The notes under the pieces: model-generated | The model's input: the letters and a program-made list of their open reading frames with translations, nothing else | What the model was told of the DNA's origin: nothing | The model's database searches: none | Assembly (NCBI GenBank): GCA_023251775.1 | Contig: JAHEYC010000019.1 | Location: 1-46,667, forward strand | DNA length: 46,667 bases | Direction: 5' to 3' | Origin: Sphingobacteriaceae bacterium | GTDB lineage: Bacteria; Bacteroidota; Bacteroidia; B-17B0; Aurantibacillaceae | Program-made: the position numbers and the translations under genes | Shown: positions 6,029 to 40,108 of the stretch, one piece after another | Layout of the letters: each line of letters opens with the position of its first letter | Numbering within the stretch: the stretch's first letter is position 1

Positions 6029-8938
6029 ATGCCATCAAAAAAGGTTTTTTGGCTATGCGTAGTTGTACTCATCAGCCAAATTTACCGTTCGCAAAACCTT
6101 AATTTCAATTACTATAAAGTTGGGACCGAAGAAGGCATGAACAGCCTCAACGTTTTTAATTTGCAGCAAGATTCTAATGGCTTGATGCATGTAACAACGG
6201 ATAATGGGGTTTATATTTATAACGGTTATAGCTTTACACTGGTAAAGGACGATCTTTCAAATAACCCGACCATCATTTCTTCTTTCATAAAAGATAATTC
6301 TACCATTTATCTATCAACGAACGAAAATGGAATTACGGAACTTAATTACAAACAGCGGAAACAAAAGCAAATTGGTCCGCGAAAACTAAACAGTTCGATC
6401 GACCAGATCATTACAGCTGAAAACTATATGTACATTTTGAGTTCTACTATACGTTTACAGATAATTGATCTCAAAACGAATGAACTCATAGTTGACGCGA
6501 TCAAGGAAAAAGATAAAAACAATCAAGCTCACTGTATTTATAAAACGAAGGATGGCAGAGTATTAGTTGGAAGAAGTGATGGTTTGTATGAAATGCAAGG
6601 AACTACTCCAAAAAAATTAGACCTTATAAAAAACCTTCCGGCCTATTCTCTTGCCGAGAATACTAAAGGCGAATTACTTATTGGCTCAGCATCCAAGATC
6701 TTTTTTGCAAAGGATAATAAATTATTAAAAGAAATTGTGCCTTTATACAAAACAACAACATTCTCTATGGGTGGCGAGAAAAGCATCAATAAAATGGTTT
6801 GTGATAATTTCGGACGCATTTGGTTCTCATCGGCGCCCAATCAAAATATTTATGTTTATTATAATGGAGTTACGCATGATATATTCAATGAATTGAACAT
6901 TACTCCTCTTTTGATCTCGTGTATTTATAAAGATCAGGAAGAGAATATTTGGATAGGAACAATGGAAGATGGGGTTTACGTGATACAAAATTCTTTTTTT
7001 ACGAATGTATCCATCAACCCCGACAATAAACCTTTGAGTGTAAATAAAATTCACTTTAAGAATGATCTTATTTTTACAGCTACCAGCAATGGATTTTATG
7101 CATACAACTTTGTGCTGAATGAAGTAAAGACCATTTCGGCACCGGATAATTTTTTGAATCCTGTGTTTGACATCAACGATGTTGGAAATACGATCTACTA
7201 TACCAAACGCAGCCAATTCGATCTTTCCGGAAGTCTCATCTTATCTGGAAGTAATTCTTATAAATTCAAACCCATTTACGGTAAACTTGTATATAAATTA
7301 CCTAATGGAAATTTAGTTCTTAGCGATTGGATGGCCAATGTGCTTTTAACCAATAGCGATGGATCAAAAACATTGGATACGCTTATTTCATTTCCCGATT
7401 TTTCTCAAAATGTTGCTTCCGTTTATTCGCATGGCGATTCACTTCTTATTGCAACAAATAAAGGATTATATCTATCGCGATTCAAATCAAAGCAATATAC
7501 TTCCACCGGAAAGAATCCTGATAAAAAAGTTAATCACATAAGTGTTATAGGTGGGCAATTGGTTGTTTGTCACGAGGACGGAATTGAATTCCTAAATACC
7601 GGCGAAGAAATAAAAAAGCTTGGAAGTAAGCCACTCAACGGCGTAAAAAAGATCCGCGAAATGAACGATATGATCTGGATTATTACTGCCGACGGATTAT
7701 TTATTTGCGATAAAAATTTAAATCCGGTTAAGATCTATAACCGTTCTAATGGCGTATCCTCGAGTTCTATTAACGATATCTCATTTAATGAGCGTTACAC
7801 ATGTATTTCAAGCTCTAAAGGAATTTCCTTTGCGTTAACTAATGATATCATTCAACATTCAAATACGCTTAATGCAGTTACCATTGATATGGTTAAGATC
7901 AATGAGCGTAATAATTACTATGATGGAAAAACCATTGCCTTAGGCGCGAACGATAACGATGTTACTGTATTCTTTAATAGCCCTTATTATAACAGCTATC
8001 GCTACAAACAATATTACCGTTATAAATTAGATAATAATAATTGGGCACCATTGGAAAATACAGCGTTTAATATTCCTGCGTTGGCTGGTGGTATAACTCA
8101 TAAAATCATCATTGAAGCTTCGACCGATAATATCAATTGGAGTGCTCCAACAGTTATTGAATTTAAAAAAGAAGAAAAATTCACTGAGTCAAGATACTCT
8201 TACATTATTATCATTGGGCTTGCAACCCTCATTGCTACGTTAATAAGCTATTTATTAATTAAACGTGTCAAAAGAAGAGCTATGAAGCGGATCGCCGATG
8301 AACAACAAGTAAATCTTTTGAAACATCAAGCTATGAATTCGCTGTTGAGTCCGCATTTTATTTTTAATTCCTTAACCTCCATTCAAAATTATATTAACTC
8401 CAATAATAGTTTAAAAGCAAGCGAATACCTCGCTAAATTCTCGCGCTTAATTAGAATGATCATTGAAAAAGCGGCTCAGAGTGAAATTTTATTAAAGGAC
8501 GAGATCACACGTTTAACTTATTATTTGGAATTAGAAAAAGAGCGTTTCAAAAATAAATTTGATTATAAAATTACGGTGGACGAAAAATTGGATGTGAATA
8601 CAGTTGCTATTCCAAACATGATCATTCAACCGCATGCCGAAAATTGTATCATCCATGGCATTTTACCAAAATTAGAGCATGGTAAACTGGATATTACATT
8701 CACAAAAACTGAAAAAGGAAAATTACTGATCACTATAGAAGATGATGGTATTGGTTTAATAAAAGCAAAAGAGCATTCAAAAACGGGACATAAGAGTTTA
8801 GGAACAGCCACCATTAAAAATATTTTGGAGCTTAATTCTAAATTAACGGGTAAAACACAAGTAGTAACTATGGTAGATAAATCAACATTAGGGGATGGCA
8901 AGAACGGCACCATTATTACATTGGAGCTGGAATTATGA
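6029..8938 (+). CDS. Membrane sensor histidine kinase (propeller repeats, Y_Y_Y domain, LytS-type kinase)
   Basis: About 969 residues. There is a signal peptide, then about 600 residues of propeller-type repeats (NIWIGTMEDGVYV, RIWFSSAPNQN), a Y_Y_Y-like domain (YYRYKLDNNNW), one membrane helix at about 723-745, a His_kinase domain with His776 in SPHFIFNSL, and an HATPase region (IQPHAENCIIHG, then EDDGIG). The large sensor part is expected in the periplasm, as in hybrid two-component systems of Bacteroidota, but here the receiver is a separate LytTR protein just upstream. A GTG at 6020 is in frame four bases after the regulator stop. I prefer the ATG at 6029 because a clean signal peptide follows it. 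The ligand is unknown. Confidence 0.92.
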   Translation: MPSKKVFWLCVVVLISQIYRSQNLNFNYYKVGTEEGMNSLNVFNLQQDSNGLMHVTTDNGVYIYNGYSFTLVKDDLSNNPTIISSFIKDNSTIYLSTNENGITELNYKQRKQKQIGPRKLNSSIDQIITAENYMYILSSTIRLQIIDLKTNELIVDAIKEKDKNNQAHCIYKTKDGRVLVGRSDGLYEMQGTTPKKLDLIKNLPAYSLAENTKGELLIGSASKIFFAKDNKLLKEIVPLYKTTTFSMGGEKSINKMVCDNFGRIWFSSAPNQNIYVYYNGVTHDIFNELNITPLLISCIYKDQEENIWIGTMEDGVYVIQNSFFTNVSINPDNKPLSVNKIHFKNDLIFTATSNGFYAYNFVLNEVKTISAPDNFLNPVFDINDVGNTIYYTKRSQFDLSGSLILSGSNSYKFKPIYGKLVYKLPNGNLVLSDWMANVLLTNSDGSKTLDTLISFPDFSQNVASVYSHGDSLLIATNKGLYLSRFKSKQYTSTGKNPDKKVNHISVIGGQLVVCHEDGIEFLNTGEEIKKLGSKPLNGVKKIREMNDMIWIITADGLFICDKNLNPVKIYNRSNGVSSSSINDISFNERYTCISSSKGISFALTNDIIQHSNTLNAVTIDMVKINERNNYYDGKTIALGANDNDVTVFFNSPYYNSYRYKQYYRYKLDNNNWAPLENTAFNIPALAGGITHKIIIEASTDNINWSAPTVIEFKKEEKFTESRYSYIIIIGLATLIATLISYLLIKRVKRRAMKRIADEQQVNLLKHQAMNSLLSPHFIFNSLTSIQNYINSNNSLKASEYLAKFSRLIRMIIEKAAQSEILLKDEITRLTYYLELEKERFKNKFDYKITVDEKLDVNTVAIPNMIIQPHAENCIIHGILPKLEHGKLDITFTKTEKGKLLITIEDDGIGLIKAKEHSKTGHKSLGTATIKNILELNSKLTGKTQVVTMVDKSTLGDGKNGTIITLELEL

Positions 8939-10708: not shown

Positions 10709-10740
10709 TTTGCACTTTATTCTAATTTTTTGTAAATTTG
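10709..10740 (+). promoter_or_regulatory. Promoter of the toxin-antitoxin locus
   Basis: TTTG at 10709-10712, a 20-base spacer, then TAAATTTG at 10733-10740. This is an exact match to the Bacteroidota -33/-7 consensus (TTTG, TAnnTTTG). It sits 17 bases before ATG 10758 and shows that the longer reading frame from the TTG at 10710 is not the real start. Confidence 0.75.
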
Positions 10741-33213: not shown

Positions 33214-33654
33214 TTAAGCTACTTTGATATCCTTCTTGGGTAGAACTTTCGTTTCTTCCTTTTTAGGAATGCTTAACTTAAGGATCCCATTTGTGTATTT
33301 TGCATCAACGTTATCCATGCTCACCGATTCAGGCAAGGTAAAGGAACGCGAGAATGAATTGAAAGAAAATTCCCTTCTGGTAAATTTCTTATTTTCTTCA
33401 CTTTTTTCCTCCTTTTTCTCAGCGCTGATAGTAAGTATTCCATCATCGATGCTTATTTTGAAGTCCTCTTTTTTGAAACCGGGCGCAGCAAACTCCAGAT
33501 CGAATTGCTTGGTTGTTTCGTTAATATTAACGGCAGGTAAACCTTGCCCGAATTCTTTTTCAAACCAGTTCTTTCCAAACATCTTAGCATTGTCGAAAAT
33601 GTCGGTGAACAAGGCCGGTGTGAAACTCTCATTTTTTGATCTTACTTGTGTCAT
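33214..33654 (-). CDS. Hsp20-family small heat-shock protein
   Basis: A 146-residue chaperone. The alpha-crystallin domain spans about 42-130 (VNINETTKQFDLEFAAPGFKKEDFKISIDDGILTISAEKK, then FSRSFTLPESVSMDNVDAKYTNGILKLSIPKK). The C-terminal IxV-type tail (KDIKVA) normally caps neighbouring subunits in oligomers. It should hold unfolding proteins during heat, redox or dormancy stress. The promoter region has a TAAATTTG box without a -33 element and an FNR-like dyad at the same offset as at two other promoters in this window. It is a single-gene unit with its own terminator. Confidence 0.94.
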   Translation of the reverse strand: MTQVRSKNESFTPALFTDIFDNAKMFGKNWFEKEFGQGLPAVNINETTKQFDLEFAAPGFKKEDFKISIDDGILTISAEKKEEKSEENKKFTRREFSFNSFSRSFTLPESVSMDNVDAKYTNGILKLSIPKKEETKVLPKKDIKVA

Positions 33655-33697
33655 TTTTTTCGATTTTAATTGTTATACATTTATTTACTATCCGTTA

Positions 33698-33765
33698 CAA
33701 ATTTATAGTGGTAGCTTTCCATTTGTAATGATGAGACTCATCATTACAACTGATCTTTATCAGTT
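33698..33765 (-). promoter_or_regulatory. hsp20 promoter with FNR/Crp-like operator
   Basis: On the minus strand a -7 box TAAATTTG occupies 33705-33698. The operator AACTGAT-N4-ATCAGTT (33748-33765) has perfect 7-bp arms around cttt, centred at 33756.5, 58.5 bp from the last base of the box. No TTTG is present at the -33 position. If transcription starts about five bases after the box, the operator is centred near -63, the class I activator position. Confidence 0.65.
33725..33747. promoter_or_regulatory. 23-bp perfect palindrome in the hsp20 upstream region
   Basis: Arms gtaatgatgag (33725-33735) and ctcatcattac (33737-33747) are fully complementary around one A. It touches the FNR-like operator. 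There is no T run, so it is not a standard terminator. It could be a second operator or a hairpin in the tail of the transcript from the gene ending at 33765. Confidence 0.6.
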
Positions 33766-34157
33766 CACGCACTCATCTTACTTAAGGCTTCTCCTTGTCT
33801 ATTTTGTTCATCTAAGGTCCAACCATCAGTTACTGTAGTTTCAAGCCATGCTTTTCCCGACTTTCTAAAAACTTGAACTCCCAATCCATATACATCACCA
33901 AAATTTTGTTCAAGATCAGAAACGGTCATGTAGGGCGTGATGGTTATTTTTCCTTTATTATGAATTGTACGGCATTCCCCAAGGGTTTTGCTGTTATGTT
34001 TTATTATTTTCTTTGGAGATCCACCACCAACGGTGTGTGGCTTTGCGAAAAACTCCAGTTTAAGATATGGAAACATTCTGCTGAATTCTTCTTGGATCGC
34101 GAAGATCTTTCTGCTATCAGTAATTAGTATTTGCATGAGATGATTATTTGTGATCAT
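33765..34157 (-). CDS. Conserved hypothetical protein, last gene of the doxX-uspA unit
   Basis: A 130-residue soluble protein with the conserved-looking stretches IQEEFSRMFPYLKLEFF, KTLGECR, MTVSDLEQNFGDVYGLGVQVFRKSGKAWLETT and TDGWTLDEQNRQGE. I recall relatives in other Bacteroidota, often near stress genes, without a known function. No enzyme motif is visible. An alternative start is ATG 34136 (MQILITDSRKIF). It begins 11 bases after the uspA stop. Confidence 0.78.
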   Translation of the reverse strand: MITNNHLMQILITDSRKIFAIQEEFSRMFPYLKLEFFAKPHTVGGGSPKKIIKHNSKTLGECRTIHNKGKITITPYMTVSDLEQNFGDVYGLGVQVFRKSGKAWLETTVTDGWTLDEQNRQGEALSKMSA

Positions 34158-34168
34158 TGGTTTATAAA

Positions 34169-34996
34169 TTAATGTAAAGCTAAGAGAGGAACCTTTGTAT
34201 GAAATGCCATACGCTTTGAATTTGGCTCGTTGAACATATTTTTTAGGATAGAATGCTTCCTAGGGATCATCACGATCATGTCTATTTCGCTCATCTCCAC
34301 AAATTCATTTATTCCTTCAACCACATTCTCTGAAGTAATAAAGTGGAACGAATGATCGGTATTTGATAATGAATTTTGCAGTTTCATGAATCCCGATACA
34401 ACTTGCCCTGCAAAAACTACAGGTTCTAATTCGCGTTCAACATTTAAAACGTAAACATGGGCCTTGAACGATCGCGCCAGCGCTTTTAGAGGCTCAAGCA
34501 CTTTTTCATTCTCAATTTCGTTATAATCACAAGCCAATGCGATCTTTTTTGCGATCTTGTATTTCACATGTTCATCAATTGCCAATACCGGACATTTAGA
34601 TCTATGAATAAGCGACGTTGTAACACTTCCAATAAGTTTTTCGCTGATATAACCAGCACCCTGCATTCCCATAATAATTAGGTCTGCTTTGATACTATGA
34701 GCATACATATCGATCTCGTCGGTGGCAAATCCGCATTTACTTACACATTCTATCTTCAACTTGTTGCCATAACTTAACGCGAGTCTTTTTTCAACTTCTT
34801 TTAAGGCCGCCACACTTATTTTTTCGATAGTTTCAATATCAGGGATCACCGCGGGCGCATCCGTTACGGGTAAGGGCACATGATAAACATTCATCAATGT
34901 TATCTTTGCGCCCATTAACACGGCCATTTCTGCAGCATAATCCACTGCGTTATTCGACACCTTCGAAAAATCTGTCGGAACTAAAATGTTCTTCAT
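34169..34996 (-). CDS. Tandem universal stress protein (UspA family)
   Basis: A 275-residue protein with two Usp domains. Domain one (1-143) has ILVPTDFSKVSNNAVDYA and a complete G-2X-G-9X-GS nucleotide motif (GMQGAGYISEKLIGS), so it should bind ATP. Domain two (about 148-275) keeps the fold but lacks the glycine motif (RKHSILKNMFNEPNSKR). One active and one degenerate half is common in tandem Usps. These proteins support survival in stationary phase, low oxygen or redox stress. It is the third gene of the doxX-led unit, eight bases after the small membrane protein gene. Confidence 0.93.
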   Translation of the reverse strand: MKNILVPTDFSKVSNNAVDYAAEMAVLMGAKITLMNVYHVPLPVTDAPAVIPDIETIEKISVAALKEVEKRLALSYGNKLKIECVSKCGFATDEIDMYAHSIKADLIIMGMQGAGYISEKLIGSVTTSLIHRSKCPVLAIDEHVKYKIAKKIALACDYNEIENEKVLEPLKALARSFKAHVYVLNVERELEPVVFAGQVVSGFMKLQNSLSNTDHSFHFITSENVVEGINEFVEMSEIDMIVMIPRKHSILKNMFNEPNSKRMAFHTKVPLLALH

Positions 34997-35003
34997 GATC
35001 TAC

Positions 35004-35324
35004 TTATTGAAAAATTAATAATGCAATATCGATCAATACAGCAATAGAGCTAGCCCAAACTATTAAGCGCATTGGCATAACTGCAAGGATGAATGCAAGT
35101 GAAAGAATAGTTGGAAATACGATCAACGCTATCTTATACGCATTATCTTGAGCGCCATAAGAGGCTGCGAAGCCACCCATGCAGCCGATCACAACCAGAA
35201 TCAAGGCTATTACACCGTAGCGACTGAATTCCATTAACTGCCAAAAATTTGATGGTGTTGCATGTGTTGTTTCACTTTTTGTTGAAACATTGATCGATTG
35301 TTGTTTACTCATTGTTGTTTCCAT
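35004..35324 (-). CDS. Small membrane protein
   Basis: A 106-residue protein with a polar N-terminus of about 33 residues and three hydrophobic helices (VIALILVVIGCMGGFAAS, IALIVFPTILSLAFILAVMP and LIVWASSIAVLIDIALLIF). No family is recognised. It lies between doxX (13 bases) and uspA and is surely co-transcribed. Confidence 0.8.
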   Translation of the reverse strand: METTMSKQQSINVSTKSETTHATPSNFWQLMEFSRYGVIALILVVIGCMGGFAASYGAQDNAYKIALIVFPTILSLAFILAVMPMRLIVWASSIAVLIDIALLIFQ

Positions 35325-35337
35325 GATGTTTTGTTTT

Positions 35338-35763
35338 TTAAGGTTTAAAAATTAAATTGTCTAGTGATAAAGCGTTCCATGCCTGAGGCACAAATAATAA
35401 AAACAGTAATAATAATAATCTGGGAAGTACATAGCGCGTGTCCCACATTGGAGAAGTGATGCCAAAACCAATAGCAGCTATGATCAAATTGATGCCTAAA
35501 AGATAAAGTGCATAATATTCAAAAAGACCAATGATCAATAAGAAACCGCAAATCAGCTCAGTGTAAGATGTGAACCATGACGCAGTTGCCGTTAAAGATC
35601 TTGGTATGCCTTTGTTCGCAAAATTTGTTTCGAAGGTGGCCACCACATTCCTTACTTTAATATTGAACACAGCATCATATCCTTGAAAAAAGAAAAGCAC
35701 GCCCAAGAAGATCCTTGCGATTAGAACCGCTACTATTTCGTGGTATTGATTGATAGTGCCCAT
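35338..35763 (-). CDS. DoxX-family membrane protein
   Basis: A 141-residue protein with four membrane helices. It has ARIFLGVLFFFQGYDAVFN, the usual DoxX opening, then TASWFTSYTELICGFLLIIGLFEYYAL and PRLLLLLFLLFVPQAW. Members have been linked to thiol redox balance in mycobacteria and to quinol oxidase subunits in archaea. Exact function here is unknown. It heads a four-gene unit (doxX, membrane protein, uspA, 130-residue protein). Its promoter carries two FNR-like dyads. Confidence 0.88.
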   Translation of the reverse strand: MGTINQYHEIVAVLIARIFLGVLFFFQGYDAVFNIKVRNVVATFETNFANKGIPRSLTATASWFTSYTELICGFLLIIGLFEYYALYLLGINLIIAAIGFGITSPMWDTRYVLPRLLLLLFLLFVPQAWNALSLDNLIFKP

Positions 35764-35788
35764 TTTGTTTTTACTATTAAGTATGAAG

Positions 35789-35886
35789 CAAAGGTATAGA
35801 GGACATAGGGCGCAGGGAATGAGTGAGGTCAGAAACGGGGATGATTATTGTCAGTTTTTGAAGGACTGACGTAAGTCATAAATTTG
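35789..35886. promoter_or_regulatory. doxX / chaN-like divergent control region with two FNR-like dyads
   Basis: Minus strand: -7 box TACCTTTG at 35796-35789, with no -33 TTTG. Dyads are TGATtattGTCA (35842-35853, centre 35847.5, 58.5 bp from the last base of the box) and TGACgtaaGTCA (35867-35878, centre 83.5 bp away). Plus strand: TTTG at 35857-35860 and TAAATTTG at 35879-35886 form a promoter for the chaN-like gene, with the second dyad lying inside its spacer. A regulator bound there could activate doxX while blocking the other direction; this is inference. Confidence 0.6.
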
Positions 35887-35982
35887 AATAAAATAGCAAT
35901 GAATTTCGCCGTTCGTCGCGCTAAATGACCATTAAGGCTGAATTTTTGGTAGAACACAAGAAAACTCTTTAACTTGGCAAAC

Positions 35983-36846
35983 ATGAAAAAGATCCTATTT
36001 ATTATTCCTGCACTTTTACTAATGAATTTTGCAGTTACAATTGACAAACAACCCTATGTTTTATTTACAGGTAAAGGTGTTAAGACCAATTATGATCAGT
36101 TATTGGCGGAAGCAAAAAAAGCCGATATCATATTATTTGGCGAATTACACGATAATCCTATTTGCCATTGGTTGCAAAGAGAACTAACAGAAGATATGTT
36201 TGCCGAAAAGAAAAGCAACCTTGTATTAGGTGCCGAAATGTTTGAGGCAGATGATCAAATTGCGTTGAACGAATATTTAGCAGGTAAGGTCTCCGAAAAA
36301 ACAATGAAGGATGAAGTTAAACTTTGGACCAATTTTTCTACCGATTACAAACCTCTGTTAGACATTGCCAAAACCAATAAATTAAAGTTTGTTGCTTGTA
36401 ATATTCCGCGTCGCTATGCAAATATGGTGTATTCGCGCGGCGAAAAGGCACTTGATAGTATTGATGTAGAGGCAAAAAAATGGATAGCTCCTTATCCTAT
36501 AAAATACGATAGTACTTTAAAATGTTATAAAGAGATATTTGAAAATGCAGGCGGACATGGCGGGCAGAATTTACCGAAGTCGCAAGCTTATAAAGATGCA
36601 ACGATGGCGCATTTTATTTTAAAGAATTGGACCAAAGGAAAAGTATTTATACATTATAATGGGGCTTATCACAGCAATTATCATCAAGCAATTGAATGGT
36701 ATTTAAAACAGCAGAATCCGGATCTTAAGATCATGGTGATCTCGTCTAACGAACAAAAAGATAATTCTACGTTAGATGAAAAAGTAATGGATAGTGGTGA
36801 TTTTATAATTTGCACTCCTTCTACTCTTACAAAAACTTACAAATAG
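35983..36846 (+). CDS. ChaN-like exported protein (haem-binding uptake family)
   Basis: A 287-residue protein with a signal peptide (MKKILFIIPALLLMNFAVT) but no lipobox Cys, unlike Campylobacter ChaN. The family core is visible: IILFGELHDNPICHWLQREL, LVLGAEMFEADDQIALNEYLAG, FVACNIPRRYANMVYSRG, KDATMAHFIL and VFIHYNGAYHS. The ChaN fold binds haem through a dimer, and distant members are predicted peptidases. The start is ATG 35983, not the in-frame TTG at 35974, because the signal peptide begins there. It is convergent with the receiver-Crp gene, one base apart. Confidence 0.86.
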   Translation: MKKILFIIPALLLMNFAVTIDKQPYVLFTGKGVKTNYDQLLAEAKKADIILFGELHDNPICHWLQRELTEDMFAEKKSNLVLGAEMFEADDQIALNEYLAGKVSEKTMKDEVKLWTNFSTDYKPLLDIAKTNKLKFVACNIPRRYANMVYSRGEKALDSIDVEAKKWIAPYPIKYDSTLKCYKEIFENAGGHGGQNLPKSQAYKDATMAHFILKNWTKGKVFIHYNGAYHSNYHQAIEWYLKQQNPDLKIMVISSNEQKDNSTLDEKVMDSGDFIICTPSTLTKTYK

Positions 36847-36847
36847 G

Positions 36848-37906
36848 TCAGTTGCGCATATTCGCCAACTTATCGTAATTAATTACTGAGATCGTACTTC
36901 CTGAAACCTCAATAAGTTTCTCTTCCTTAAAATCACTAAGGGTGCGAATAACGGTTTCGGTGGCTGTTCCAACAATATTTGCAAGATCCTCTCGCGAAAC
37001 GTTCATGCTGAATTTAGTATCGCCTTCTTTTTTGTATTTATCAGAAAGTTTAACCAAGGCTTCTGCCACCCTTTTTCGCACCGAATTATAGGCGAGTTTC
37101 ACCAACTGATCTTCTCTTTCCAAAAGATTATTAGAAAGTATCTCAATGAATTTACGCGAAACTTCTGCATTCTTATAAATAAGGGCAGAGAAATCATCCT
37201 TAGGGATCATATAGATCTCCGAATCTTCAAGTGCCGTAGCAGAGCTCGTGTATTTTTCTCCTTGTAATAATGAAAGATATCCAAAAAAATCGCCTTCGTT
37301 ATGAAGTTCAGTGATCAACTCTTTTCCTGAATCGCTTGTATGCGCGACCTTTACTTTTCCTTTGCTCACAAAATATATTCCTTTTGGATAACCACCTTCC
37401 TTATAAATATCATCTTTCTTTTTGTAAGACCGAAGCTCCCTTTCTTCGGATAGTTTTTTAAGTGATTCTATTCCCTTAGCTTCATTAATAAAATCGTTGA
37501 TGCCCGAAACATTCTTTGCAAATTCTTTTTTAAGGATCTCGTTCTTTTTTAAACGACTTTCGACAGCATTTAATAATTCAACATCATCAAATGGTTTGGT
37601 CAAATAGTCATCCGCACCCATTTCCATTCCTTTTCTAAAGTCACTTCGTTCTGCTTTTGCCGTTAAAAAAATGAATGGTATGCTTGCAGTTTCTTCATTC
37701 TTCGAGAGTAAATGCAAAGCCCCGTGTCCATCCAATACAGGCATCATGATATCACAAATAATAAGATCAGGTTTTTCTTTTTGAGCGAATGCTACGCCTT
37801 CTTTTCCGTTGGTTGCGGTAATAACATTGTAATTGGCCAGACTTAATATTTCCGCAGTATTCTCGCGTACATCTTCATTGTCTTCAATTAAAAGGATCTT
37901 TTTCAT
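36848..37906 (-). CDS. Response regulator fused to a Crp/Fnr-type DNA-binding module
   Basis: A 352-residue protein. The receiver spans 1-120, with Glu8/Asp9, phospho-acceptor Asp52 in IICDIMMP and Lys104 in LTKPF. A linker leads to a cNMP-binding beta-roll at about 155-265 (DIYKEGGYPKGIYFVSKGKVKVAH, GDFFGYLSLL). The Crp HTH is at about 280-345. The recognition helix ATETVIRTL has Glu317 and Arg321 where FNR and CRP have the Glu and Arg that read TGA half sites. The roll lacks the Arg-Ser-Ala phosphate motif of true cAMP binders, so phosphorylation rather than cAMP is probably the input. No FNR-like Cys cluster is seen. It follows the PAS kinase gene by one base. Predicted operators are at 33748, 35842, 35867 and 39178. 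Confidence 0.92.
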   Translation of the reverse strand: MKKILLIEDNEDVRENTAEILSLANYNVITATNGKEGVAFAQKEKPDLIICDIMMPVLDGHGALHLLSKNEETASIPFIFLTAKAERSDFRKGMEMGADDYLTKPFDDVELLNAVESRLKKNEILKKEFAKNVSGINDFINEAKGIESLKKLSEERELRSYKKKDDIYKEGGYPKGIYFVSKGKVKVAHTSDSGKELITELHNEGDFFGYLSLLQGEKYTSSATALEDSEIYMIPKDDFSALIYKNAEVSRKFIEILSNNLLEREDQLVKLAYNSVRKRVAEALVKLSDKYKKEGDTKFSMNVSREDLANIVGTATETVIRTLSDFKEEKLIEVSGSTISVINYDKLANMRN

Positions 37907-37907
37907 T

Positions 37908-39113
37908 TTATTGCGGTATTATAATTGTAAATTTTGTGCCTTTATTTTCTTCGCTTTCAACATCCAAAGAGCCATTCATAAGCTCAGCATATTTTGCAAC
38001 AATGTTCAATCCCAAACCGGTTCCTTGAATATGAGTGGCATTATGTCCTCTAAAAAATCGCTCAAATAAATGTTGTTGATCCTCTTTAGAGATCCCTATT
38101 CCATTATCTTTAACCGAGATCTTTACCGATGTATCTGTTGCTTGCGAATTAACTTCTACTTTTCCTTGCTCCGGTGAGAATTTAATGGCGTTCGAGATCA
38201 AATTAAAAAGTACATTTTTCAACAATTTTTTATCTAGAGAAACTATTTCCTTTCCTGAATGTTCTTGAGTAAGAACTTGGCCTTGTGTTGCCATCCCTTT
38301 CATTTCGCTGATAACGTCCTTAATAAATGTTCTAAGATCGATTTCCTCAGGTAAATTCTCGATCTTCCCTTCTTCTAATTTACTTACCGACAAAAAATCA
38401 TTTAAGATATCTGTTAGATTATTAATGGAGGTCTTTATCTTACTTACATGTTTGGTTTGCTTTTCAATATCTTTTTGCTCGCCATATTTTGTAACTAACG
38501 ATAACGATGACATCATGGTTGTAAGCGCTGTTCTAAATTCGTGAGAGGCCATAGAAACAAAACGTGATTTGAGCTCGTTCAATTCTTTCTCTTTATCAAG
38601 AGCGTTATGGAGATCTTTTTTTGTCCGCTCAAGTTCCTGGATAGCCTCTTCTAAAATAAGTGTACGGTTCTTCACTTGTCTCTCTAATTCAAAAGAATAA
38701 TTCTTTAATTTTTCTTCAGCTTGTTTACGTACCGTTATATCCACAATAAAGCCTATAACGAATTTTCCTTCGGATGTTGTGTATGGACTCAAACTGATCT
38801 CAACAGGAAATTCTGTTCCGTCTTTTTTAAGACCAAATAGTTCTCTACCGCCTCCCATAGATCTGGCGTGAGGATCTTCGTTGAATTTTTCGCGGTGACC
38901 AACATGTTTAGCTTCTAATCTTTTGGGCACAAGAACTTCAATTCGCTTACCTAATAACTCATCCGTATCATAGCCAAATAATTTTTCCGCACTTGGATTA
39001 ACGCGAACTATCGCTCCACGATCATTTACAACTAAGATGCCCTCAGTGGCAAACAAAAACAGGGCATCTATTCCCTCTTTTCCTTCCATTACCTTGAAAT
39101 TTATGGTGTTCAT
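37908..39113 (-). CDS. PAS-domain soluble sensor histidine kinase
   Basis: About 401 residues. A PAS domain at about 12-128 (ILVVNDRGAIVRVNPSAEKLFGYD, then FPVEISLSPYTTSEGKFVIGFIVDIT) is followed by a coiled coil, a HisKA domain with His191 in SMASHEFRTALT, and HATPase_c with N, G1 and G2 boxes (NLISNAIKF, VKDNGIGIS, GTGLGLNIV). It has no membrane helix, so the signal is intracellular. The PAS type is like FixL or NifL, where haem or flavin reports oxygen or redox; the cofactor cannot be read here. An in-frame TTG lies at 39149, inside the -7 box. I use the ATG at 39113. Confidence 0.92.
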   Translation of the reverse strand: MNTINFKVMEGKEGIDALFLFATEGILVVNDRGAIVRVNPSAEKLFGYDTDELLGKRIEVLVPKRLEAKHVGHREKFNEDPHARSMGGGRELFGLKKDGTEFPVEISLSPYTTSEGKFVIGFIVDITVRKQAEEKLKNYSFELERQVKNRTLILEEAIQELERTKKDLHNALDKEKELNELKSRFVSMASHEFRTALTTMMSSLSLVTKYGEQKDIEKQTKHVSKIKTSINNLTDILNDFLSVSKLEEGKIENLPEEIDLRTFIKDVISEMKGMATQGQVLTQEHSGKEIVSLDKKLLKNVLFNLISNAIKFSPEQGKVEVNSQATDTSVKISVKDNGIGISKEDQQHLFERFFRGHNATHIQGTGLGLNIVAKYAELMNGSLDVESEENKGTKFTIIIPQ

Positions 39114-39146
39114 TGTAAATTTAATAGATTTTAATGACCTACGAAA

Positions 39147-39242
39147 CAAATGTAAATAGGCACTTTTTCATTAAATATGACAAAAATCATATACCCTTCT
39201 GAGCATCCTCAGAGGTCCAATTTCCCCTTTAACAGATATTTG
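39147..39242. promoter_or_regulatory. Divergent promoter with one shared FNR-like dyad (kinase/regulator and terB-like)
   Basis: The dyad TGACaaaaATCA at 39178-39189 (wider arms ATATGA and TCATAT) is centred at 39183.5. Leftward -7 box TACATTTG at 39154-39147 is 36.5 bp away, which predicts the class II position near -41.5. Rightward box GATATTTG at 39235-39242 (seven of eight) is 58.5 bp away, equal to the hsp20 and doxX offsets. Neither side has a TTTG at -33. The two distances differ by 22 bp, about two helical turns. Confidence 0.65.
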
Positions 39243-39277
39243 AAGTATAATTCTATAACTAATTAAAACTATATATC

Positions 39278-39688
39278 ATGACACCAACAGAAAATCTACA
39301 TTATGCTATAGGCGAGATAGCTTATGCCATTGCATGCGCCGACGGCCAAGTACAAAAAGAAGAACGTAAGAAATTTCACGACATTGTTGCAGCCGAGATA
39401 CGTTGCAAAGATTATGGATTTGATGTTTCTGACATTATTTTTAAGATCCTTGATAGAGATAAAATCTCTACCAAAGAAGCATATGAGGGGGCTATGAAGC
39501 AAGTTAGGGTCAATAGCCATTATTTAAGTCCTGAGCTTAAAGAAACATTCGTTAAAGTGATCGAAAAAGTAGCTAAGGCTTACAAGCCTGTAACAATCGA
39601 CGAAATGAATTTGATCGAGAGATTTAAAAAGGACATTGCACCGTTAAAAGGGGATCCAATTTATTATGGACAAGCACTTGTAAAGTGA
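39278..39688 (+). CDS. TerB-like protein
   Basis: A 136-residue helical protein. Residues 8-35 (HYAIGEIAYAIACADGQVQKEERKKFHDIV) have the acidic ADGxVxxEE pattern of the TerB/DjlA N-terminal fold, which is often metal-binding and linked to tellurite or membrane stress. The C-terminal extension (FKKDIAPLKGDPIYYGQAL) is unassigned. It is transcribed divergently from the kinase gene and shares its operator. The next gene starts 36 bases on. Confidence 0.8.
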   Translation: MTPTENLHYAIGEIAYAIACADGQVQKEERKKFHDIVAAEIRCKDYGFDVSDIIFKILDRDKISTKEAYEGAMKQVRVNSHYLSPELKETFVKVIEKVAKAYKPVTIDEMNLIERFKKDIAPLKGDPIYYGQALVK

Positions 39689-39724
39689 TCTAGTTGTTTA
39701 TCTGATAATTTAAAAAAAGAAAAC

Positions 39725-40108
39725 ATGGAAGTAAAAAAACAAATTGGCATATGGATGGATCATTCAACTGCACATATATTAGAACATAAAGGCGATAAGA
39801 TCATAACAAGTAATATAAATTCAGAATTTACGCATGAGCAAAGACAACATGCGTTGGGAAAAAATGAGAATTTAATGCATAATAAGGAACAGCATATGCA
39901 ATCGAAATATTACAAAACAATTGCAGATGTTGTTAAAGGGCATGATGAGATATTGCTTTTTGGACCCACTACTGCCAAAGAGGAATTGTCGAATTTACTT
40001 AAGGCCGACCATCATTTTTCGAAATCAAAGATCGATGTTAAGCACGCCGATAAAATGACCGAAAATCAGCAACACGCTTTTGTGAAAAAACATTTTCATT
40101 TGAGTTAG
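39725..40108 (+). CDS. Possible eRF1-domain-like (baeRF/host-attachment type) protein
   Basis: A 127-residue soluble His- and Lys-rich protein. IGIWMDHSTAHILEHKGDKI, then YYKTIADVVKGHDEILLFGPTTAKEELSNLL resemble the C-terminal domain of the bacterial eRF1/Pelota-like family, in which GPxxAKxxL is typical. Such proteins are proposed to act on ribosomes, so a role in translation arrest during stress is plausible but inferred. It is probably in one unit with the TerB-like gene, and its stop overlaps the convergent VOC gene's stop. Confidence 0.6.
   Translation: MEVKKQIGIWMDHSTAHILEHKGDKIITSNINSEFTHEQRQHALGKNENLMHNKEQHMQSKYYKTIADVVKGHDEILLFGPTTAKEELSNLLKADHHFSKSKIDVKHADKMTENQQHAFVKKHFHLS

Follow-up and report, generated by a model that had tools for sequence, protein, structure and literature searches.

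In the 46,667-nucleotide stretch of Sphingobacteriaceae bacterium DNA analysed here (Bacteroidota, Aurantibacillaceae; assembly GCA_023251775.1, contig JAHEYC010000019.1, positions 1 to 46,667 of the forward strand; hereafter the window), a sensor kinase and a regulator that joins a receiver to a Crp-type DNA-binding part (receiver-Crp) very probably activate low-oxygen and stress genes through tandem class I and class II operator sites, this genome keeping the stress part. The regulon itself is real and conserved. Its site pair, the fixed spacing of that pair, its co-occurrence with the regulator and the genes that lie behind the sites were all computed directly. An earlier note on this DNA had proposed a receiver-Crp regulon whose FNR-like operators sit at set distances within promoters, with one site at the kinase/regulator operon. 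The site is there and the proposal is supported, with activation read from operator position.

Tandem operators at four promoters of the window

All four promoters considered in the window (hsp20, doxX-usp, kinase/regulator and terB-like) carry one operator at 58.5 bp and one at 36.5 bp, 22 bp apart, where distance runs between the centre of the operator and the final base of the -7 box TAnnTTTG. On the minus strand, the hsp20 box (TAAATTTG, 33698-33705) is accompanied by a degenerate class II operator, TGA-N6-TCA, at 36.5 (33729-33740) and by a strict class I operator, TGAY-N4-RTCA, at 58.5 (33751-33762). The doxX box (TACCTTTG, 35789-35796, minus strand) repeats this arrangement, with a degenerate TGA-N6-TCA class II site at 36.5 (35820-35831) and a strict class I site at 58.5 (35842-35853). 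The boxes of the kinase-regulator operon (TACATTTG, 39147-39154, minus strand) and of the divergent terB-like operon (GATATTTG, 39235-39242, plus strand, one mismatch to TAnnTTTG) lie 95 bp apart, the sum of 58.5 and 36.5, so that the same two operators serve both promoters: the strict site at 39178-39189 is class II (36.5) for the kinase and class I (58.5) for the terB-like gene, and the degenerate site TGAGCATCCTCA at 39200-39211 is class I (58.5) for the kinase and class II (36.5) for the terB-like gene.

The tandem TGAN6TCA-N10-TGAN6TCA occurs three times in the window and not once in 100 shuffles. Chance palindromes in AT-rich intergenic DNA would fit the dyad count taken by itself, which is near expectation (five strict TGAY-N4-RTCA dyads in the window against 3.17 expected, a number reached by 23 of 100 shuffles) and was rejected as evidence on that ground; the spacing, tandem and conservation controls contradict this explanation, which is extremely improbable.

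The four dyads on which the earlier note was built (33751-33762, 35842-35853, 35867-35878 and 39178-39189) were all recovered. Its distances of 58.5 bp for hsp20 and doxX and 36.5 bp for the kinase hold from TAnnTTTG, but at the terB-like gene the box at 58.5, GATATTTG, departs from that motif by one base. Where it had described single phased sites, the fixed positions stand, but the operators come as pairs 22 bp apart, class I and class II at the same promoter, and their degenerate partners had been missed. Nor do all four dyads belong to the layout, since 35867-35878 lies 83.5 bp from the doxX box. This dyad abuts a plus-strand TAAATTTG box (35879-35886) before a ChaN/Tiki-type gene (35974-36846); it is 13.5 bp from that box and the neighbouring dyad is at 38.5, again outside the 58.5/36.5 layout. 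It may be a repressing site, or it may have arisen by chance.

A further proposal was that regulated promoters are marked by the absence of a -33 element. The four promoters do lack TTTG, and TTTG-N20-box is found at 10709 and 26510, but the feature does not distinguish them. Two such matches compare with 0.73 expected, and 19 of 100 shuffles have at least two; TTG or TTTG occupies the -33 place at 6 of 55 boxes with operators and at 16 of 139 without, a weak test in that the control boxes may often not be promoters. The absent element is therefore unsupported as a mark of regulation.

Conservation around related receiver-Crp genes

The layout was then counted in 80 loci of other Bacteroidota (1.43 Mb), the best 80 of at least 588 relatives from a scan of genome contigs for receiver-Crp genes. 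Exact repeats were removed and close relatives were included, so that events are fewer than counts; six of the loci are shorter than 10 kb. Strict dyads gather at the two expected distances, 58 at 58.5 and 40 at 36.5, and the other 118 distances together hold 81 (mean 0.7), the next-highest being direct neighbours (nine at 59.5, six at 37.5 and five at 35.5). Markov-1 simulations for these loci give 0.15 and 0.1, and five altered control dyads give 0 at both 58.5 and 36.5, though with only 5-11 pairs each. The spacing from dyad to dyad is 22 bp in 46 cases and 23 bp in six, with one or two at each of the other spacings up to 100 bp. Of the 80 loci, 60 contain one or more exact site pairs or tandems. 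Among the 99 promoters gathered from these loci with one base of slack, 70 have a strict distal site, 50 of them together with a proximal TGA-N6-TCA; 27 have a strict proximal site only, and two combine a strict proximal site with a loose distal one.

Symmetric divergent promoters 95 bp apart, as between the kinase and terB-like genes, were rejected as a general rule, the only near-matches in the 80 loci that enclose a strict operator being L128 (94 bp) and L129 (95 bp, register off by one). Exact 95-bp box pairs that share tandem operators in this manner occur at L130 (17136/17231) and at G010:C200 (8025/8120). Other divergent pairs share one dyad, with boxes 73 bp apart (2 x 36.5), as at G001:C1:3689135-3689208.

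Co-occurrence with the regulator gene

The co-occurrence set consists of 120 genomes, the window's own and 119 relatives, sorted by receiver-Crp match into 81 with a strong one (E 1e-60 or better), 17 with a weak one and 22 with none at 1e-20. Some strong matches are partial at contig ends, and some of the 80 loci appear to be the same contigs as in this set, so that the two sets are not independent. Matches to the 58.5 layout number 264, 15 and 12 in the strong, weak and no-match genomes, against 49, 10 and 3 with a control gap; tandem matches number 467, 39 and 5, against 48, 10 and 14 with a control spacing. Both the 58.5 layout and the tandem at 22 bp go with the receiver-Crp gene, and the mis-spaced controls do not. 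The earlier note had suggested asking of related genomes whether the spacing follows this gene, and by these counts it does.

The window's own genome (98.5% complete) yields 15 dyad-box pairs with gaps of 20-50, four at 58.5, three at 36.5 and eight over the other 29 gaps, and contains six tandems against none for the pattern read backwards. Besides the window, contig C69 (L175:1018-4716) provides a fourth convincing tandem, a promoter with an exact box at 58.5 followed by a thioredoxin-like gene, a small gene, a universal stress protein (USP) gene and a ribonucleotide reductase large-chain gene. The other two are doubtful, C98 lying within an open reading frame (ORF) and C24 between convergent ORF ends with no box at the expected places. 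Three more sites at exact distances, on C28 (YiaAB), C48 (secretion-tail protein) and C89 (86 aa), have a single operator each and are not counted as firm.

Alternatively, a different protein, a stand-alone FNR/CRP, might read the sites, and the receiver-Crp gene would be no more than a neighbour. The same tandem is indeed found just 3' of stand-alone Crp genes in G074, G076, G099 and G110, before USP-like (by eye), hemerythrin or metal P-type ATPase genes, and in G110 eight tandems occur with no receiver-Crp found. This explanation is nonetheless unlikely: no HTH_Crp_2 protein other than the receiver-Crp was found in the window's own genome, and the weak-match genomes show the 58.5 layout 15 times in 17 genomes, seven of them in the fragmented G010.

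The receiver-Crp regulator and its stand-alone relatives

The regulator (352 aa; 36848-37906, minus strand) consists of Response_reg (residues 4-116), cNMP_binding (159-243) and HTH_Crp_2 (278-349), all above the Pfam cut-offs. The domains PF00027, PF13545 and PF00325, likewise above their cut-offs, place it in the CRP/FNR superfamily, and the acidic-pocket, phospho-Asp and Lys positions of its receiver (D9, D52 and K104), which do not vary among 20 aligned proteins, identify it as a response regulator. Glu317 and Arg321, to which the earlier note had drawn attention, are also invariant in all 20; spaced i, i+4 in the recognition helix, they form the pair that we take to be the CRP/FNR recognition-helix residues. 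FNR-type cysteine ligands are absent from residues 118-200, where 19 of the 20 aligned rows have no Cys and L018 has a single one. The cAMP-contact motif of CRP includes Glu72 and Arg82, whose equivalents look replaced in the regulator, as judged by eye on the alignment. The best-scoring solved Crp-type chain for the Crp part is 2gau. In a tree of Crp parts, the 20 receiver-Crps and one long-branch stand-alone row (L123) share one branch with 96/99 support; the root and the sister group are not settled by this tree.

The operator grammar is not exclusive to the receiver fusion, as it also lies beside stand-alone Crp relatives. G110, G074, G076 and G099 each have one tandem directly downstream of a stand-alone Crp gene (235-237 aa). 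Six tandems were retrieved from these genomes, and each is flanked on one side by a correctly placed -7 box (two exact, four with one mismatch); one precedes a CcoNO-like gene (by eye). Six stand-alone relatives share 37-45% identity with the regulator over the Crp part; at their N-termini, four match CxxC-x(5-14)-C, in L169 the Cys after CxxC lies farther away, and L078 has none. The closest solved structures to L170 are 2gau and then FNR, matched from residue 13 on. Since stand-alone relatives, most of them with FNR-like cysteines, carry the same tandem, the receiver-Crp looks like an FNR whose iron-sulphur input has been exchanged, which suggests that a receiver replaced this input in an FNR-like protein.

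Two further arrangements were observed among these relatives. In L077, a stand-alone FNR-like gene whose product has N-terminal cysteines (7613-8329) comes immediately after the receiver-Crp gene (6547-7602). Hemerythrin-domain proteins are encoded 3' of the tandem beside stand-alone FNR-like genes at L171:3886-4434 and L170:6834-7448.

Target genes

A first gene could be assigned by an ORF rule to 92 of the 99 promoters (seven had none), in groups named from one member each. The most frequent are the kinase (15), CcoNO (15), a 130-aa family (12), USP (11), DoxX (7), HemN (6) and Hsp20 (4); rarer ones are P-type ATPase, ATP-cone protein and receiver-Crp itself (two each), with 16 others. The CcoNO group corresponds to COX1 plus FixO, and HemN scores above the NCBIfam cut-off. 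Judged from these homologies, the conserved regulon appears to combine low-oxygen respiration (cbb3, HemN) with stress proteins.

The hsp20, doxX, usp, 130-aa, 106-aa and terB-like proteins of the window each have homologues that head operator promoters elsewhere. The small heat-shock protein Hsp20 (33214-33654, minus strand; Pfam) has homologues as first genes of four such promoters. The minus-strand doxX operon begins with a DoxX family protein (35338-35763; Pfam; first gene of seven) and is followed by a 106-aa protein with no Pfam or NCBIfam match (35004-35324; one homologue in first place), a universal stress protein with two stretches of Pfam Usp (34169-34996; first gene of 11) and a conserved 130-aa protein of no Pfam or NCBIfam family (33765-34157). 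The last has homologues in 36 of the 80 loci and as first gene of 12 promoters, and this family of 120-130 aa (also L109:11188-11556) is a core regulon member that has no family name.

On the plus strand, the TerB-like protein (136 aa; 39278-39688) scores 22.4 bits, below the Pfam cut-off of 24.4, and has one homologue as first gene of an operator promoter; in L055, the promoter of the terB-like homologue has both operators strict and an exact box. The 127-aa protein 3' of it (39725-40108, plus strand; no Pfam or NCBIfam match) was called eRF1-like when a terB-eRF1-like unit was assigned to the regulon. That assignment holds for the terB-like gene, which has both operators, but the 127-aa protein has a homologue in only one of the 80 loci, none as first gene of an operator promoter, and its membership rests on lying behind terB.

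Receiver-Crp copies in L130-L139 (G001, G030) are surrounded, over tens of kilobases, by groups of operator promoters, like a low-oxygen island. The promoters precede USP, BON-type, Hsp20-like, P-type ATPase and CcoNO-like genes, named by eye from protein starts.

The partner kinase and the proposed mechanism

The kinase (37908-39113, minus strand; PAS, HisKA and HATPase_c by Pfam) ends 1 bp upstream of the regulator gene, and the two presumably form one operon. A kinase match is present in 78 of the 80 related loci, and this gene neighbourhood points to a cognate two-component pair. The best solved relative of the kinase PAS domain is FixL (1.3e-13), followed closely by another multi-sensor kinase (10jx) and the DosP family. 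Of 61 PAS kinases, that of the window included, 59 have the proximal His. A heme-based oxygen signal is plausible for this kinase.

In the proposed mechanism, the kinase would phosphorylate the receiver of the receiver-Crp protein, whose active dimer would bind two FNR-type sites 22 bp apart, TGAY-N4-RTCA at the distal position and an often looser TGA-N6-TCA at the proximal one. Sigma-A promoters would then be activated from the class I position (about -63.5), from the class II position (about -41.5) or from both. Predicted targets are low-oxygen genes (cbb3 oxidase, HemN, a metal P-type ATPase, the kinase and regulator) and stress proteins (USP, DoxX, Hsp20, TerB-like). The parts of this explanation that we infer are the phosphorylation step, the direction of regulation (activation, not repression) and the nature of the signal (low oxygen or redox).

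Class II and class I activator sites of CRP and FNR lie near -41.5 and -61.5. The regulator could also be a repressor or act in both ways, with phosphorylation or de-phosphorylation switching its targets off; palindromic sites suit repressors too. Repression is improbable, however, as the two fixed positions, neither over the -7 box, match these activator places, and a fixed register to the box is not needed for repression. Passages on Flavobacterium psychrophilum promoters place the TAnnTTTG box at -12 to -5 relative to the start (PMC9723704), which would put the operators at -63.5 and -41.5. These positions, obtained by applying the F. psychrophilum start map to this organism, leave the distal site 2 bp off its classical place.

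Several results weigh against activation by this pair in response to low oxygen. No exact site pair or tandem occurs in 20 of the 80 loci, and 8 of the 81 receiver-Crp genomes have one tandem or none. Conversely, 8 of the 39 genomes without a strong match have at least two tandems (eight in G110, ten in G010); among the exceptions, G053 has one contig that bears both a tandem and, near its start, a 103-aa Crp frame, the fragmented G010 (630 contigs) has six Crp-type matches, and G110, 98% complete, has stand-alone Crp frames only. The 36.5 layout is less specific (370, 54 and 23 matches in the strong, weak and no-match genomes), and the 36.5 position alone was rejected as a receiver-Crp signature, being frequent also in genomes without a strong match. 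The distal Arg of the PAS domain is present in only 10 of 61 PAS kinases, for which reason FixL-type heme oxygen sensing was not accepted as demonstrated. A PAS domain was aligned in 60 of the 78 kinases and not in the other 18 (Pontibacter, Rufibacter, Adhaeribacter and others; loci L083, L088, L091, L095, L096, L103, L104, L115, L120, L122, L128 and seven more); in L104 and L077, the two PAS-less cases checked, a receiver domain precedes the kinase. Finally, a FixO match is absent from the window's own genome. The oxygen link here is thus by homology only, cbb3 control in this genome was rejected, and the genome seems to have kept only the stress part of the regulon.

The variable input domain, the unconserved distal Arg and the general-stress character of the Hsp20, USP and TerB content make it quite possible, if still doubtful, that the signal is nitric oxide, quinone redox state or general energy limitation and not oxygen. 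Oxygen is favoured by the frequency of CcoNO and HemN among the targets, by the heme oxygen sensors FixL and DosP among the nearest solved PAS structures and by the conserved proximal His.

Comparison with known systems

None of the papers listed in the literature searches, which for the most part did not reach subscription journals or preprints, describes this receiver-Crp regulator or the tandem layout. The passages seen of one study report cbb3 oxidase and heme genes of F. psychrophilum as up under oxygen limitation and leave the regulator unnamed (PMC9723704), and passages of another tentatively assign Bacteroidota homologues to MalR (PMC8510549). The layout offers a testable regulator and a sequence code from which regulons could be predicted across many genomes, and it exemplifies a regulon that persists through a change of sensor.

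A broader reading, which we hold with evenly divided confidence, is a sensor swap within an FNR clade of Bacteroidota. One promoter code (-63.5/-41.5) and one low-oxygen regulon would be read either by a cysteine-bearing FNR-like protein or by the receiver fusion, with the FixL-FixJ-FixK cascade folded into two proteins and, for part of the phylum, a receiver standing in for the kinase PAS as well. The stand-alone Bacteroidota FNR-like proteins (L168-L171, L077) resemble the regulator over the Crp part at the identity given above, and the 22-bp tandem lies beside the gene in L168-L171; they differ in being about 237 aa long with N-terminal CxxC cysteines in place of the receiver. The solved chain 2gau is the best match to the Crp part, but is listed as a 232-aa Crp/Fnr family regulator with no stated function.

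Among characterised systems, the earlier note had likened the gene content to that of the mycobacterial DosR regulon. The likeness lies in a two-component system with USP and Hsp20-type proteins under low oxygen, but DosR has a LuxR/NarL-type helix-turn-helix, in place of which the receiver-Crp has HTH_Crp_2 (Pfam), and the present regulon includes cbb3 genes; given cbb3 and HemN alongside stress proteins, FixL/FixK or FNR is closer. With FNR of E. coli and its relatives, whose consensus is TTGAT-N4-ATCAA, the system shares the TGAY-N4-RTCA site, the recognition-helix Glu and Arg and low-oxygen targets, but the receiver-Crp has a receiver domain instead of a cysteine cluster before its cNMP domain. 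The FixL-FixJ-FixK cascade of rhizobia is likewise matched by a PAS kinase with FixL as its best solved PAS relative, a response regulator, a Crp/FNR output and cbb3 and HemN targets. It is unlike the present case in that the functions of FixJ and FixK are here placed in one protein, at Bacteroidota promoters with tandem class I plus class II sites and with stress genes prominent. The system would work like FixL-FixJ-FixK or FNR, but is neither FNR, for want of the cysteine cluster, nor DosR, which has another helix-turn-helix.

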